Source: Halosegnis longus (GTDB lineage Archaea; Halobacteriota; Halobacteria; Halobacteriales; Haloarculaceae). Taken from it: a DNA stretch of 64,000 nucleotides. The position numbers were made by a program, and so were the translations under genes. Positions 3,298 through 22,674 of the stretch are shown here, piece after piece. The first letter of the stretch is position 1. Every line of letters starts with the position of its first letter. Under the pieces are notes generated by a model, which saw only the letters and a list, made by a program, of their open reading frames with translations, had not been told where the DNA came from and searched no databases. The stretch lies in assembly GCF_009663395.1 (NCBI RefSeq), contig NZ_QKNW01000001.1, forward strand, positions 1,612,001-1,676,000, written 5' to 3'.

Positions 3298-4650
3298 CTA
3301 CGCGGTGAGCCAGTTGGGCGCGAGCACCCGCGCGAGCACCCCCGGCGCGAGCAGCTTCGTCGGGTCCTGCTGGAGCCGGATGACGCGTTTCAGCTCCTCG
3401 GCGACGTAGTCGTTGTCGTGGGCCGTCGGAATCAGCCGGTCCATGTACCGATTGAACAGGTCCGTTCCCGGCGGCTTCGGGCCGGTCGTCGCGTCGTGGG
3501 CGAAGTCCGACCCGACGGTGAGTTGCCACACCGGCTCGATAACATCGGCCGTCCGGTCGAAGAAGCGAGCCGCGAGGTCGTCGGTCCCCGCGGCGAGCGC
3601 GGCGTGGAGCTGGAGCGCATCCAGCGCCGAAACGGACATCCCCTGTCCGTAGACGGGATTGAAGCTCGCGAGCGCGTCGCCGGTCACGAGCAGCCCGTCG
3701 GGGAACGCATCGAGGTGGTCGTAGCGCCGGCGCGTGCTCGACGGGAACCGGAAGGGGCGAATCTCCGCGACGCGGTCGTTTGCAGCGAGCATATCCGCGA
3801 CGTGAGAGACGGGAAGCGATTCCGCACACGCCATGAACCCCTCGGGGTCGGTCGGCGGATACTCGCCGTGGAGCCCCGACAGCGTCACCATCCACTGGTC
3901 GTCCTCGATTGGGATGACGGCTCCGCCCTGGGTCGTCGGCGGTGACGTGCCCACGAGCATCGTCGTCGTCTCCTCGGGCGGGCGCTCGATGCGCGTCGTC
4001 GCGTAGCCCACGTCGACGGACACCGTCTCCGTCTCCGGCGGCTCGTAGCCGTGACGGTCCAGCCACTCCGGCACGGGCGAGGTACGGCCCCGCGCGTCCA
4101 CCACGAGGTCGGCAGATATCGTCGATTCGGAGCCATCCTCGCGGTAGCTGACGCCCGTGACGCGGCGCTCGTCGTCGCTGCTCACCAGTCCCGTCACGTG
4201 TGTCTCGGGTCGCAGCGTCACGTTCGCCGTCTCGCTCGCGTGTCGCCGCGTCAACTGCTCGAACAGCGGCCGACTCGCACAGTACATCGGAACGGAATCC
4301 AAGCCGTCGGCCACGAAGCCGCCGTCGTGGTGGTACGCCAGTTCGTGGGCGGTGTCGATGGTGATGCCGCCGGCGTCCGTCAGGTCGTCGAGGTAGCCGG
4401 GAAACAGCGTCTCCAGCATCGCCCGCGCCGGTTCGAGCATCACGTGCGCGTGGGTCGCCTGCGGGACGCCGCGCCGCGCCACCGGTTCGTCCGGCAGCGG
4501 GTCGCGGTCGAGAACCGTCACGCGGTCGTAGCCGTCCGCAAGCACCCGTCCTGCAAGGAGTCCAGCCATGCTCGCTCCGACGACGACGGCGTGGTCGCCA
4601 ACGGTGTCGACCGCCGTCGCATCGTACGACGGAAGCGACCCTAATGTCAT
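3298..4650 (-). CDS. FAD-dependent oxidoreductase / monooxygenase-like protein
   Basis: A 450-residue flavoprotein of the geranylgeranyl-reductase / p-hydroxybenzoate-hydroxylase superfamily. The N-terminal Rossmann motif is HAVVVGASMAGLLAGRVLA, followed by the acidic strand end VTVLDRD. The second FAD motif is DGLLVTGDALASFNPVYGQGMS, with the GD that contacts the ribityl chain, and an ADLVVDARGR segment lies between. The substrate is unknown; tryptophan halogenase-like and epoxidase-like relatives share these motifs. ATG 4650 is favoured over a GTG at 4671 because a TATA-like box sits about 26 bases upstream of the ATG. Confidence 0.82.
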   Translation of the reverse strand: MTLGSLPSYDATAVDTVGDHAVVVGASMAGLLAGRVLADGYDRVTVLDRDPLPDEPVARRGVPQATHAHVMLEPARAMLETLFPGYLDDLTDAGGITIDTAHELAYHHDGGFVADGLDSVPMYCASRPLFEQLTRRHASETANVTLRPETHVTGLVSSDDERRVTGVSYREDGSESTISADLVVDARGRTSPVPEWLDRHGYEPPETETVSVDVGYATTRIERPPEETTTMLVGTSPPTTQGGAVIPIEDDQWMVTLSGLHGEYPPTDPEGFMACAESLPVSHVADMLAANDRVAEIRPFRFPSSTRRRYDHLDAFPDGLLVTGDALASFNPVYGQGMSVSALDALQLHAALAAGTDDLAARFFDRTADVIEPVWQLTVGSDFAHDATTGPKPPGTDLFNRYMDRLIPTAHDNDYVAEELKRVIRLQQDPTKLLAPGVLARVLAPNWLTA

Positions 4651-4671: not shown

Positions 4672-4679
4672 GAATTTAC
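4672..4679 (-). promoter_or_regulatory. Probable TATA box for the flavoprotein gene
   Basis: On the minus strand the sequence reads GTAAATTC, centred about 26 bases before the ATG at 4650. This fits a leaderless transcript and supports that start. Confidence 0.4.
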
Positions 4680-4725: not shown

Positions 4726-4849
4726 GGTGATTGGCAGAGCAGCGTATTATCGACCCGCAGTGATTGGCGGGTCGGACTCCTACCGACCTGCAGTGGTTGG
4801 CAGGTCGGATTTCTACCGACTTGCAGTGGTTGGCAGGTCGGACTCCTAC
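4726..4849 (+). repeat. Tandem hairpin array, 33-bp period, three full units and one degenerate unit
   Basis: Unit 1 pairs CGACCCGC (4751-4758) with GCGGGTCG (4767-4774). Unit 2 pairs CCGACCTGC (4783-4791) with GCAGGTCGG (4800-4808). Unit 3 pairs CCGACTTGC (4816-4824) with GCAGGTCGG (4833-4841). The loops are AGTGATTG, AGTGGTTG and AGTGGTTG. Units 1 and 2 differ by a compensated base pair; unit 3 has one G-T pair. Spacers are ACTCCTA, ATTTCTA and ACTCCTA. A decayed copy (GGTGATTG at 4726-4733) lies exactly one period upstream of unit 1. The array fills the space between two divergent genes and ends ~10 bases before a TATA box. Confidence 0.9.
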
Positions 4850-4856
4850 CGACGCC

Positions 4857-4865
4857 GATATACGA
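4857..4865 (+). promoter_or_regulatory. Probable TATA box for the gene at 4886
   Basis: GATATACGA is centred about 25 bases before ATG 4886, fitting a leaderless transcript. It directly follows the hairpin array. Confidence 0.45.
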
Positions 4866-4885: not shown

Positions 4886-5605
4886 ATGTCAGACCGACTC
4901 GATATCGCCGCCGACCCCGACGCCGTCGCCGCGGAACGCGACGCGGTCGTTTCCCGCATCCGCGACCACGCCGGCGATATCGCCTACGCCATCGCCCGCA
5001 TCGAGGGGGGTGACTACGGCCGCCGCAGCTTCGAGACGGACGACGGCGAGTGGACCGTCAAACACGAACAGGGGGACATCGAGTTCCTGTTGTTCGAACC
5101 CCGAAGCGGACAAGAGACCTACGTCGTCTCCACGCAACAGCCTCCGGAACCCGCGGCCCTCGTCGACGCGCTCGCCGACTACGACGCCTTCGTCGAGCGG
5201 TTCGACGCCTACGTTCGGTCGCTCGACGGCCTGCTCGATGACGTGCCGACGGAGTTTCCGACGCCCACCTCCGCCGCGGATGTCGTCGCGGAGCGCGACC
5301 GTATCGTCTCCCGCCTGCGCGAGGTGTGCAACCAGATGGCCGGCGAACTGTATCGGTACGAGATGGACGACTACGGCACCTTCACCGCCCGCGTGAACGG
5401 GACGCGGTGGGAGCTCAAGCGCGAGGAGTCGAGCACGTCGTATCTCCGCGTCGGCGGCTCCGGCGGGACGTATCTCCTCTCGCAGTACGGTCCACCCTCT
5501 GCGGAGGCAGTCCGCGAGTTCGCGCCCGATGCACCCGACTTCGTCGCGGCGTACAACGACCACGTCGCCGAGTTGGAACTCGACTTGGCGCAAATCGACC
5601 TCTAA
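4886..5605 (+). CDS. Hypothetical protein with two tandem copies of one domain
   Basis: A 239-residue acidic soluble protein of unknown function. It is an internal duplication. Residues ~14-120 start with AAERDAVVSRIRDHAGDIAY and continue to a DYG, a W-x-x-K/E-x-E strand and a Y-V/L-S strand. Residues ~132-239 repeat this pattern, starting with VAERDRIVSRLREVCNQMAG and then DDYGTFTAR, WELKRE and YLLSQYGPP. Each copy looks like a helix followed by a small beta sheet. No catalytic motif or membrane segment is seen. It has its own upstream promoter behind the hairpin array, and its stop overlaps the converging gene by four bases. Confidence 0.8.
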   Translation: MSDRLDIAADPDAVAAERDAVVSRIRDHAGDIAYAIARIEGGDYGRRSFETDDGEWTVKHEQGDIEFLLFEPRSGQETYVVSTQQPPEPAALVDALADYDAFVERFDAYVRSLDGLLDDVPTEFPTPTSAADVVAERDRIVSRLREVCNQMAGELYRYEMDDYGTFTARVNGTRWELKREESSTSYLRVGGSGGTYLLSQYGPPSAEAVREFAPDAPDFVAAYNDHVAELELDLAQIDL

Positions 5606-8679: not shown

Positions 8680-10577
8680 GCCGTACGCGCTGGCGGGTCG
8701 TCTTCGGCGACCGTCGCGGGCTGTTCGTCTGCCTGCTCGCCGCCCTCGCCGCGACCGTCGGCTGGCGCACCACGGTCACTATCACGGACAACTACACCGT
8801 CCTCAACGGACTCGTCGCGCTCTCGGAGGGCCACGTCGTCGTCCGCGAGGCGGTGTTCGGCTCCTCGCTCCAGACGCCGGGGATGGTCACCGGGCAGGGT
8901 GGTCCGGTCGCCCGCAACTACGCCCACATCGTGCTCTCGCTGCCGGCGCTGTGGCTGTTACAGGCAATCGCCGCCGTCGCGGACCTCACCGTCGCCCTCG
9001 TCGGGGGATGGTCGCTCCTCCTGCTCGCGACGGTCGTCGTCGCCGGCGACCTCCTCGACCGCGGCCGCCTCGCCCGCCTCGTCGGCTCCGGACTCGCCGT
9101 CGTCGCCTTCGTCGCCGGCGTCGCCCTCGCCACCCCACTCGACCAACCGCATCTCGCGCTGCTCGCGATGCAAACTACGACCGTCGCCGTCGCTGGGCTT
9201 GCCGCGACCCTCCTCTATCGACTGGTCGCACTGTTGCACGACGAGCGCACGGGACTGGCTGCTGGTGTCGCCCTCGCTGTCGCCTCGCCGGGCGTCCTGT
9301 GGGCGACGATACCGAAACGCCACGTCCTGACCGCGGCGTTCGCGCTCGCGGCTTGCTACTGGCTCGTTCGGAGTCGCGCGACCGGCCGGTCTGCTCGTCG
9401 GTTTCACGCCCTCGCGTACGTCCCCGTCGGCCTGACCGCGTGGCTCAACGCCGCCGAAGGACTCGTCCTGCTCGCTGCTCTCGTCGCCGTCGACCTCGCC
9501 ACGCTCCCGCGACTCGACGCTCGCCGGCTCGCCGTCGTCGCCGGCGCGTTCGGCTGTTCGCTCCTCCCGCTCATCGTGACGAATCTGCTCGTCGCCGGCG
9601 ACCCGCTCACCACGCCGCGGATGCTCCCGCCGTACGGGTCGGGTGGCGATATCCGGTTCGGCGGCGGTGGCGGCGGTGGCGGCGGTGGTGGCGGTAGTGT
9701 TGGTGGCAGCGGTGGTGGCGGTAGTGCGGGTGGTGGCGGTGGTGGCGGTAGTGCTGGTGGAGGCAGTGGCGGTAGTGCGGGTGGTGGCGGTGGCGGCGGC
9801 GGTTTCTCTCTCGCTCCGCTCCTCAGTCCGTTCGCCGAATCGCTCTCGCGGCTCAGCGTCTTCACCGGCTTCCTCACCGACGGTGTGCGCGCGAGCATCA
9901 CGACACCCTCGAAGCTGTATCACGCCTTCGTCCGGAGTGGCTACGTCGCCACGCAGAACACCGGCTCGACCGGACTCGCCATCAATCTCGCCTTCCTCGA
10001 AGCACTCCCTATCGCCGGGGTACTCGCCGCACTTCCGGTGCTCGCGGCTCGCCGCGCCCGGACACTTGATATCGCCGACTTCCGAGCGTCGCTCGCAACA
10101 CCGGCCCGGACGGCCGACGCCTTCGCGCTCGGCTACGCGGTCCTCCTCACGCTCGTCTACATCCCGCGGCTCCCGGTTCACGCGACGTTGACAGTCCGGT
10201 ATATCTACCCGCTGTTCCCGCTCGCGCTGTACGCCGTCGCCCGACTGCCCGCGGCGCGTGCGGTCGTCCGCGAACAGGCGACCTTGCTCGCGTTCACCTA
10301 CGCCGGCGGCGTCGCTATCGGTGGCCAACTCACCGTCCTCGTCGTCGCCCTCGCCGACTGCGGCGCGAGCGAGACGCTGCAGGCGTACGCGCTGCTCGCC
10401 CTTGGACTCGCGGCGCTGCTCGCCGGCTGGTCGGTCGCCGCCGCGCTCGGTCGCCGCACCACCCGCACCGGGGCCGTCCTGTTCGGACTGGCCGGCGCGT
10501 GCGCGAGTAACGTCATCGGCGTCTTCCTATTCCAGTTCTTCGGCGAGGCGTTCCTCCTCCCGTTCGTGCCGCTGTGA
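8676..10577 (+). CDS. Polytopic membrane protein with poly-glycine insert
   Basis: A 633-residue protein with about 12 hydrophobic segments. An N-terminal helix is followed by a large polar loop (ITDNYTVLNGLVALSEGH), the pattern of lipid-linked-sugar glycosyltransferases (GT39/GT-C type) and related haloarchaeal proteins. I see no full catalytic DD or DE motif, so glycosyltransferase activity is only a possibility. Residues 329-376 are almost pure Gly/Ser/Ala, placed after the GDPLTTPRMLPPYGSGG loop and before the second membrane half. GTG start is set by the 4-base overlap with the upstream secreted-protein gene. Confidence 0.8.
   Translation: MSRTRWRVVFGDRRGLFVCLLAALAATVGWRTTVTITDNYTVLNGLVALSEGHVVVREAVFGSSLQTPGMVTGQGGPVARNYAHIVLSLPALWLLQAIAAVADLTVALVGGWSLLLLATVVVAGDLLDRGRLARLVGSGLAVVAFVAGVALATPLDQPHLALLAMQTTTVAVAGLAATLLYRLVALLHDERTGLAAGVALAVASPGVLWATIPKRHVLTAAFALAACYWLVRSRATGRSARRFHALAYVPVGLTAWLNAAEGLVLLAALVAVDLATLPRLDARRLAVVAGAFGCSLLPLIVTNLLVAGDPLTTPRMLPPYGSGGDIRFGGGGGGGGGGGGSVGGSGGGGSAGGGGGGGSAGGGSGGSAGGGGGGGGFSLAPLLSPFAESLSRLSVFTGFLTDGVRASITTPSKLYHAFVRSGYVATQNTGSTGLAINLAFLEALPIAGVLAALPVLAARRARTLDIADFRASLATPARTADAFALGYAVLLTLVYIPRLPVHATLTVRYIYPLFPLALYAVARLPAARAVVREQATLLAFTYAGGVAIGGQLTVLVVALADCGASETLQAYALLALGLAALLAGWSVAAALGRRTTRTGAVLFGLAGACASNVIGVFLFQFFGEAFLLPFVPL
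9660..9803 (+). repeat. GGN-codon microsatellite encoding a Gly-rich linker
   Basis: This 144-base run of GGT/GGC codons, interrupted by AGT, GCG and GCT, encodes 48 residues of Gly with a few Ser, Ala and one Val. Blocks such as GGTGGTGGCGGTAGTGC recur imperfectly, which suggests growth by slippage. Length changes in multiples of three keep the reading frame. Confidence 0.9.
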
Positions 10578-20520: not shown

Positions 20521-21676
20521 GCAGCCCCTGTCCCGTGAGCCGTCGCTCCTTCTCGCGACAGAAGTCGGTCCACGTCGGGACGGCGTCCCGGTTCGGCGTC
20601 TCGTCGCTGTCGAGTCGCGCAGCGACGGCGTCGGCCCACGATTCGGGGTCGGGGTCGGCGACCGAGACGGCCGGCTCCGCAGCGAGTAGTTCCTTCGCGT
20701 AGGTGTCCATCGAGAGCACCACGGGCGTCCCGACGCCGTACGCCTCCAGCGGCGACAGCCCGTAGGACATCCACGCCGAGCAGCCGAACACGTCCGCGCC
20801 GGCGTAGTAACCCGGCAGGTCGGCGTCGTCGACGTAGCCGGCGAACGTCACCCGACCCTCGACGCCGGCGTCGGCGACCGCCTCGCGCAGTCGTCCCTCG
20901 TCCGGGCCGGTGCCACAGACGGTGAGTCCCACGTCGTAGCCACGCTCCGCGAGCCGAGCGACGGCGCGAATCTGGGTCTCGATGCGCTTGCGCGGGTCGA
21001 GTCTGCTCACCGACAGCAGGTCGTACTCGTGCTCGGAGAGCGCCCGGGGGTCGTGGCTGTCCAGCCACGCCGCGTCGATACCCGGCCGGACGACGGTGCT
21101 GTCGGCGTCGTACAGCCCGTCGAGTTCGCGGGCGACACGCTGTGAACCGGTGAAGACGGCCGCCGCCTTCCGGAGCCCGCGCCCGCGAACGCGCTCGCCA
21201 ATCGTCGCCCACAGTCGTTGTCGCGCAGAGAGGTTCGGCGGGTCGTGGAACGTCCGGTGGCCCGGCACCTCCGAAACGAGTCGCTCGTAGGCCGGGGTGT
21301 TGACGTGCGGGACGAGCCGCGGGTCGTCGGGAAACCACAGCACGGAGCCGTGGACGTGGGGCGCATACGGCGTCCCGTCGAGACCACAACAGACGCTCAC
21401 TTCCTCGGTGGCGTAGTGGGAGAGAACGAGGTCGGGGTCGCGCTCGGAAAGCAGGGGACGAAGCCGGCGAACCCCGCGCCACCCCTTGTGCGGGCGACCG
21501 TATTCGACCGCCTCCACGCTGTCTGGCAGCGTCTCTGCCACGTAGTCGGCGTCGTACTCCGGAGCGAACACCGTCACCTCGTGGTCGTCGGCGAAGTGGC
21601 TCGCCTCCTCGATGCAGAGCCGTTCCGCGCCGCCGGGGGGTGCGAGCGTGAGACCGAAGACGACGCAGATGTGCAT
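20513..21676 (-). CDS. Family 4 (GT-B) glycosyltransferase
   Basis: A 387-residue GT-B enzyme. The N-terminal glycine loop is FGLTLAPPGGAERL. The donor half holds LLSVSRLDPRKRIETQIRA, LTVCGTGPDEGRL and the E-x7-E-type sequence SAWMSYGLSPLEAYGVGTPV. These fit a retaining GT4 enzyme at the cytoplasmic membrane face. Its start at 21676 lies about 45 bases from the hairpin array and about 24 bases from a TATA-like box. Confidence 0.9.
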   Translation of the reverse strand: MHICVVFGLTLAPPGGAERLCIEEASHFADDHEVTVFAPEYDADYVAETLPDSVEAVEYGRPHKGWRGVRRLRPLLSERDPDLVLSHYATEEVSVCCGLDGTPYAPHVHGSVLWFPDDPRLVPHVNTPAYERLVSEVPGHRTFHDPPNLSARQRLWATIGERVRGRGLRKAAAVFTGSQRVARELDGLYDADSTVVRPGIDAAWLDSHDPRALSEHEYDLLSVSRLDPRKRIETQIRAVARLAERGYDVGLTVCGTGPDEGRLREAVADAGVEGRVTFAGYVDDADLPGYYAGADVFGCSAWMSYGLSPLEAYGVGTPVVLSMDTYAKELLAAEPAVSVADPDPESWADAVAARLDSDETPNRDAVPTWTDFCREKERRLTGQGLLR

Positions 21677-21702: not shown

Positions 21703-21720
21703 GTCAGTTGTGCTCGGTGT

Positions 21721-21811
21721 CGTTCGGCTACGGCAGTCGAACGGACAGGAGTGCTGTCCGGTTACGGCAACCGGACAGACAGGAGTGACGTTCGTCTACG
21801 GCAGTCGAACG
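21721..21811 (-). repeat. Tandem hairpin array, 34-bp period, three units
   Basis: On the plus strand, unit 1 spans 21721-21743 (arms CGTTCGGCT and AGTCGAACG). Unit 2 spans 21755-21777 (arms TGTCCGGTT and AACCGGACA, perfect 9-bp stem). Unit 3 spans 21789-21811 (arms CGTTCGTCT and AGTCGAACG). The loop is ACGGC in all three. Units 1 and 2 differ at three compensated base pairs. The two spacers are GACAGGAGTGC and GACAGGAGTGA. Unit 3 overlaps the last codons and stop of the GT2 gene. Read on the minus strand, the sense of the downstream GT4 gene, the spacers contain ACTCCT. Confidence 0.92.
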
Positions 21812-22674
21812 GACAGATGCTTACTCGCGCGATAGGCTCGCCACCCGCCGAGCGCCGACGCGAGCGGGACGGCCCGCGCGGGCGTCGGCCGGGTTCGAAA
21901 GGCGCGCCAGAACTCACTGAGTGCGGCGCGACGCTCCCCCGACCGGAGCAGTTGTTCTCCGGCCTTGCGTGCCGTGTCCGCGACCGCCCGTTTGCGCGCC
22001 GCCGGATACTCCTCGTAGAGGGCAGCGTACTCGTCGATGATGTCGCGCCGGCCCTCGATGAGTCCCATCGACTTCCCGCGGGAGTCGGGTTCGACGGCGC
22101 GGGTGACGAGCAGGTCGTCGACGGCATTGAACGGGGTCCGCCGGGCGAGTTCGATGATGAGTCCGAGGTCGTCACCGCCGGGCCGGTCGGCGAGCGGGAG
22201 GAGCGACCGGAGCAGTTCTCCCTCCACCAGCAGCGTGGAGGTGAGACACGGCGAGGCGTCAAAGGCGAGTGCCGCGTCGAGCATCTCGCCCGTCGCTCGC
22301 GGGTAGCGCTCGTCGCCGTTCTCGAACCGGAAGCCGCAGAAGCCGACGCGGGCGTCGCTCTCGCGCAGCGACTCCATTCCGCGTTCGATACGCTCGGGGT
22401 GGAGTTGGTCGTCGTCGTCGAGCAGGTGGACGTACTCCCCCTCAGCGCGTTCGATACCGGCGGTGCGGGCGGGGTTCCCCCCGCGATTCTCGTCGAGCGC
22501 GAGATACGTCACCTCGGGGTGGTCCGCGACCGGGGCGGCGTGTCCTTCGCCGGAGTCGTCGACGACGACACACTCCACGTCGGGATGGGTCTGTGCCCGG
22601 ACGCTCTCGATGGCGTCGGCGAGTCGCCCGTTGCGGTAGTGTGTGGGGATGACGACGGAGACGAGCGGGGCCAT
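21796..22674 (-). CDS. Family 2 glycosyltransferase
   Basis: A 292-residue GT-A enzyme: VSVVIPTHYRNGRLADAI, then VVVDDSGEGH in place of NDGSTD, ENRGGNPARTAGI and the metal motif LDDDDQL. The body is shorter than the other two GT2 genes of the locus but shares the C-terminal layout. The last codons (KHLSVRLP then stop) are encoded by the third unit of the hairpin array, so the repeat has been captured as the gene end. ATG 22674 starts MAPLVSVVIP directly at the fold. Confidence 0.9.
   Translation of the reverse strand: MAPLVSVVIPTHYRNGRLADAIESVRAQTHPDVECVVVDDSGEGHAAPVADHPEVTYLALDENRGGNPARTAGIERAEGEYVHLLDDDDQLHPERIERGMESLRESDARVGFCGFRFENGDERYPRATGEMLDAALAFDASPCLTSTLLVEGELLRSLLPLADRPGGDDLGLIIELARRTPFNAVDDLLVTRAVEPDSRGKSMGLIEGRRDIIDEYAALYEEYPAARKRAVADTARKAGEQLLRSGERRAALSEFWRAFRTRPTPARAVPLASALGGWRAYRASKHLSVRLP

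Follow-up and report, generated by a model that had tools for sequence, protein, structure and literature searches.

The window analysed here, a stretch of 64,000 nt from the genome of Halosegnis longus (G000), contains a tandem array of hairpin units that occupies the gap between two divergent genes, both of which have a TATA-like box near -26 (Table 1; G002 and G003 denote the genomes of sister species). The 239-aa protein encoded downstream of the array had no match in Pfam or NCBIfam. Leaderless transcripts are the haloarchaeal norm and make up 72% of the protein-coding transcripts in Haloferax volcanii (PMC4983044). Because the TATA-like boxes at about -26 fit leaderless transcripts, the array is predicted to lie outside both mRNAs, and this spacing bears out, at the level of prediction, the claim of a first-pass annotation of this DNA that the array is placed between divergent probable leaderless promoters and belongs to neither predicted mRNA.

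Table 1. Features of the window locus and of two further hairpin arrays in G000
Feature	Coordinates	Strand	Details
Divergent FAD-dependent oxidoreductase gene	3298..4650	-	PF01494, E = 2.7e-16
TATA-like box TAAATT of the divergent gene	4673..4678	-	~-26 relative to the ATG (4650); conserved in G000, G002 and G003 (as GAATTTA)
Decayed fourth unit	4726..4746	+	GGTGATTGGC...; 33 bp ahead of unit 1 and in phase with it; arms unpaired
Head-to-tail array of 33-bp hairpin units (n = 3)	4747..4845		Units 1 to 3 below
Unit 1	4747..4779	+	Hairpin 4751-4774, CGACCCGC AGTGATTG GCGGGTCG; model match 45.5 bits
Unit 2	4780..4812	+	Hairpin 4784-4807, CGACCTGC AGTGGTTG GCAGGTCG; model match 49.6 bits
Unit 3, promoter-proximal	4813..4845	+	Hairpin 4817-4840, CGACTTGC AGTGGTTG GCAGGTCG; 3' edge 45 bp before ATG at 4886
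TATA-like box GATATAC of the + gene	4857..4863	+	~-26 from ATG; kept in array-less G003
Gene downstream of the array	4886..5605	+	239-aa protein of unknown function, duplicated domain; homologues in 96/142 family genomes
Unrelated hairpin array	21717-21830		Loop TACGGCA on +; period 34, ~3 units; ends 44 bp before glycosyltransferase start at 21676 (-)
Third hairpin array	G000:C1:445740-445810 (inside L302)		34-bp period, two units and a partial one

In each unit of the window array, AGTGRTTG is flanked by two arms of 8-9 bp, and a 9-bp linker, GAYTYCTAC, comes after the hairpin. Using Tandem Repeats Finder, a period of 33 with 3.1 copies and 88% matches was obtained over 4751-4853, and a repeat search returned spacings of 33 and 33 together with a weaker in-phase copy from 4726-4727. 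The arm letters read CCC/GGG in unit 1 and CCT/AGG in unit 2; the stem of unit 3 contains a single T.G mismatch. On folding of the + strand, z values of -3.9 as RNA and -3.7 as DNA were obtained, and none of 200 dinucleotide shuffles was equally stable. The description of three 33-bp hairpin units with a decayed in-phase fourth was thus confirmed. Known classes were likewise considered. A CRISPR array was rejected, since the units stand head to tail and the 9-bp linkers are themselves repeated, leaving no unique spacers; an intrinsic terminator was rejected, since GACTCCTAC or GATTTCTAC, rather than a T run, comes after the hairpins; and a search of five loci against Rfam at E up to 1 returned only a sub-threshold chance match outside the array, which disposed of a known structured RNA or riboswitch. 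Repeat layout, downstream letters and Rfam therefore agree with the earlier statement that the array matches none of these.

The consensus search of haloarchaeal genomes that the first-pass annotation had proposed yielded exactly one further array of the module in G000, at C1:1806522-1806621, 190 kb from the window array and upstream of a gene of the two-domain VOC/glyoxalase type by Pfam, as well as copies in both sister species. In G002, the window locus carries a single intact unit with a decayed one immediately upstream, and the VOC locus carries two units. The VOC array of G003 comprises three units, and the number differs among the three sister species as 1, 2 or 3. G003 has no array at the window locus, yet it retains both flanking genes, FAD and downstream, together with the GATATAC box; this empty site does not align base by base with the array-bearing one. 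Absence of the repeat at this site in relatives had been named beforehand as grounds for abandoning the reading, and on this point the relatives are divided, G002 having a unit there and G003 none. No unit was present upstream of the VOC orthologues in G001, G004 and G005. A first model, for which G003 was out of sample, recovered the G003 array (E = 8.8e-8) and a copy within a G003 coding sequence (E = 1.4e-5); its other family-wide matches (E ~1e-5 to 0.01; L060-L069), when read singly, looked like chance or coding sequence. The same applied to the order-wide matches of a second model (L269-L279), with which a sample of 392 genomes across the order yielded no convincing match beyond G000, G002 and G003. 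A scan of genome contigs for two loops ~30-37 bp apart returned 73 stretches, of which only the G003 contig passed a stem check, the others being simple repeats or unpaired. The module was not found in 72,556 plasmids, 50,697 phages or, in a single-unit scan, viral contigs. The second locus, the variation in copy number, the empty G003 site and the coding insertion had not been foreseen.

Comparison of 13 units indicated that the core GCAGTGRTTGGC is nearly fixed and that the outer arm positions vary, mostly pairwise: five of the nine pairs had double changes and 91% of cells pair. Double-changed cells numbered 16, vs 5.7 in shuffles; none of 500 shuffles reached the covariation score, and the score was lost when the pairing partner was slid along. 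Differing but paired arms occur within one genome (CGACCTGC, TGACTCGC), and half-changed intermediates are found in unit 3, L2a and L9b. These compensating arm changes run counter to the other ground for rejection named beforehand, namely units without pairing conservation. Of the 24 positions of the promoter-proximal VOC unit, 4 are changed between G000 and G003, forming two compensated pairs, and the 16 central bases are identical. Four-fold sites of both downstream genes are 35-45% different between these genomes, and the chance of 16 identical central bases is 0.65^16 = 0.001, although core conservation alone is weak (P ~0.06) if homogenisation reduces the three G003 units to a single case. 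The change between CCT/AGG and CCC/GGG does keep pairing, as the first-pass annotation had stated and as the covariation confirms; its conclusion that symmetry is selected is too strong, since template-switch correction could mimic this pattern, and selection for pairing and such correction cannot be separated on the present sequences.

The distance to the promoter was also compared between the two loci. From the end of the core to the ATG, the window units lie at 52/85/118 bp, and those of the VOC gene at 55/89/122 bp in G000, 54 bp in G002 and 54/87/120 bp in G003. The window and VOC promoters are non-homologous, and the sequence between core and ATG is unrelated; nevertheless, in every carrier species and at either locus, 45-48 bp separate the proximal hairpin edge from the ATG. 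In G000 the first hairpin of the VOC locus begins ~12 bp past the stop of a co-directional gene, whereas in G003 the array is separated from this former upstream neighbour by 987 bp (vs ~12 bp), with a PIN-domain gene between them (L070:5536-6523), and has stayed beside the VOC promoter despite the changed neighbour. The conservation at the VOC gene, the equal core-to-ATG distance and the retention of the array in G003 favour a promoter-linked role at the DNA level. This reading is based on two loci, and the shared register could partly be coincidence or a limit set by promoter tolerance. That the module keeps a constant distance from two unrelated promoters strengthens the earlier suggestion of a DNA-level role; no regulator was identified.

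One unit resides within a protein gene. At G003 C16:73238-73271, it lies in a winged-helix gene (L070:9069-9563, - strand) as an in-frame insertion of exactly 11 residues, equal to 33 bp and thus to the unit length. Alignment with homologues from other genera placed this insertion between two of the domain's predicted helices, and it is absent from the aligned homologues; the gene itself is absent from the window genome. The arms of the coding copy, CTGACTCGC/GCGAGTCAG, are closer to those of the G000 VOC array than to those of G003's own array. On this comparison, the coding copy shows that the 33-bp segment can be copied as a unit. In this one clean case no target duplication was obvious and no parent transposon was seen.

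Other tandem near-identical hairpins were sought in 2.06 Mb of the 2.77 Mb of G000, with a fifth-order Markov control. At the stricter setting, five sites were found, vs 0-1 per 1.6 Mb of control: the window array, the VOC array, two unrelated arrays of 34-bp period (Table 1) and one coding-looking site; the remaining part of G000 may hold more. In the 21.7-kb array the arms of the middle unit are quite different yet paired; G002 has one unit of it, and in the G003 version the hairpin edge is 35 bp before the start. Because this array extends across the upstream gene's stop codon and partly duplicates that gene end, it may be a different thing. The array at C1:445.74 kb is located between an adenylate kinase gene and a probable deoxyhypusine synthase gene, 45 bp before the start of the latter, with a diverged version in G002 (L260). 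Measured from the end of the proximal hairpin, the next start codon is 44-48 bp away in all four non-coding G000 arrays. On a rough gene prediction of G000, upstream palindromes outnumbered those of shuffles 2-4 fold; the high bins lay at 40-49 and 70-79 bp before starts, and the excess is suggestive only. Four unrelated arrays of 33-34 bp at this distance would imply a structure-reading, sequence-tolerant promoter element, recurrent in the lineage and acting through extruded DNA hairpins or a hairpin-recognising protein, a generalisation that we consider improbable. Elsewhere in the window, a Gly-rich tandem repeat of 9/27-bp units was noted at 9660-9803 within a predicted membrane protein gene.

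As judged from sequence comparison, the array may well be a promoter-adjacent cis-acting DNA module that has spread by copying and tandem duplication, and we adopt this explanation tentatively. Each unit, with its fixed core inside a palindrome, is probably best seen as a candidate protein-binding site in a palindromic setting. One to three units (at most four) abut the upstream edge of the core promoter; a protein would read the core, either alone or framed by arms in an extruded or some other symmetric form, and once bound would modulate the downstream promoter. Units would increase by tandem duplication, with occasional copying elsewhere, the direction of spread being one that we infer. A conventional dimeric operator is argued against by paired but differing arms in one genome: a dimeric repressor would be expected to have conserved half-sites and a free spacer, whereas here the centre is fixed and the arms vary pairwise. 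Several observations also tell against the cis module itself, namely the copy number of 1 to 3 for one gene, the persistence of the downstream gene and TATA box without an array in G003, a 33-bp period that does not correspond to an integral number of helical turns, and the copy within coding sequence.

The main competing explanation, which we regard as rather unlikely, is a tiny mobile palindromic repeat, of the mini Rickettsia palindromic element or REP-like kind, that was amplified in tandem and is nearly neutral, with no regulatory role; its persistence just upstream of promoters would then reflect tolerance only. The exact in-frame insertion into the winged-helix gene, the two unlinked loci with presence and copy number varying among sister species, and the fixed loop with drifting arms, typical of such elements, are all consistent with mobility. 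A tally of only two arrays plus a single stray copy over three genomes, however, is far under the usual copy numbers, neither a parent transposon nor an obvious target duplication accompanies them, and neutral copies would not be expected at a conserved orthologous site with equal promoter distance. If the unit is mobile, a very small palindromic element would have been caught entering an archaeal protein gene in frame.

Two further explanations appear improbable to a similar degree. The arrays could be transcribed and act as RNA hairpins, either as a small RNA or as 3' UTR structures of the upstream gene; a fixed loop with covarying arms is a classic RNA signature, and the G000 VOC array does start just past a co-directional stop. 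The neighbours at the window locus are divergent, however, the upstream neighbour of the G003 VOC array has been replaced by an opposite-strand gene, no Rfam match was found, and the half changes favour neither strand (on the + strand, about four are G.U and two A.C). Alternatively, the process could be purely mutational, with hairpin replication slippage making copies and template switching correcting arms without selection on pairing. Template switching that extends identity between the arms of imperfect palindromes has been described in yeast (PMC3820800), and both the half-changed intermediates and the unrelated G000 hairpin arrays of similar period fit such a process, which nonetheless leaves the fixed core, the two-locus module, the coding copy and the equal promoter distances unexplained. 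Should the promoter-adjacent module instead regulate, it would show an archaeal promoter acquiring a control site by copying and multiplying a palindrome at a set TATA distance, and how archaeal regulatory sites originate and grow could then be tested in three sister species.

Among known systems, REP/BIME sequences with RAYT transposases resemble the module as short intergenic hairpins, tandem or paired, but the module occurs at two loci only, upstream of promoters, and G000 has no Y1 transposase. An IS200/IS605-derived PATE or REP was rejected, since PF01797 is lacking in G000 and the hairpins near the Y1 genes of G002, G003 and G005 differ. The Y1 (IS200-type) transposase gene is broken in G003 (L248) and intact in G002 and G005. 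In Haloquadratum, PATEs, MITEs and small mobile repeats have been described, the PATEs with near-terminal palindromes and forms down to 52 bp consisting of the termini only (PMC3119063). These are likewise haloarchaeal transposase-free repeats, unlike which the module is very low in copy and tandem, with no related IS605-type ends found. Rickettsia palindromic elements place a palindromic unit in frame within protein genes and keep the palindrome (reviewed in PMC10969869). The in-frame palindrome insertion in the G003 winged-helix gene is of this kind, in one case only; the module differs in being 33 bp long vs ~150 bp, in having one coding copy vs dozens and in forming tandem arrays at promoters. 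Archaeal upstream activator sites adjoin the BRE/TATA region and modulate the promoter, as do the upstream sites of haloarchaeal bop and gvp. The module shares with bop/gvp-type sites a short DNA element of palindromic flavour directly upstream of the core promoter, and is set apart from them by the tandem repetition of 33-bp units, an asymmetric core that stays fixed while the arms covary, a copy number that varies and a stray copy in a gene.
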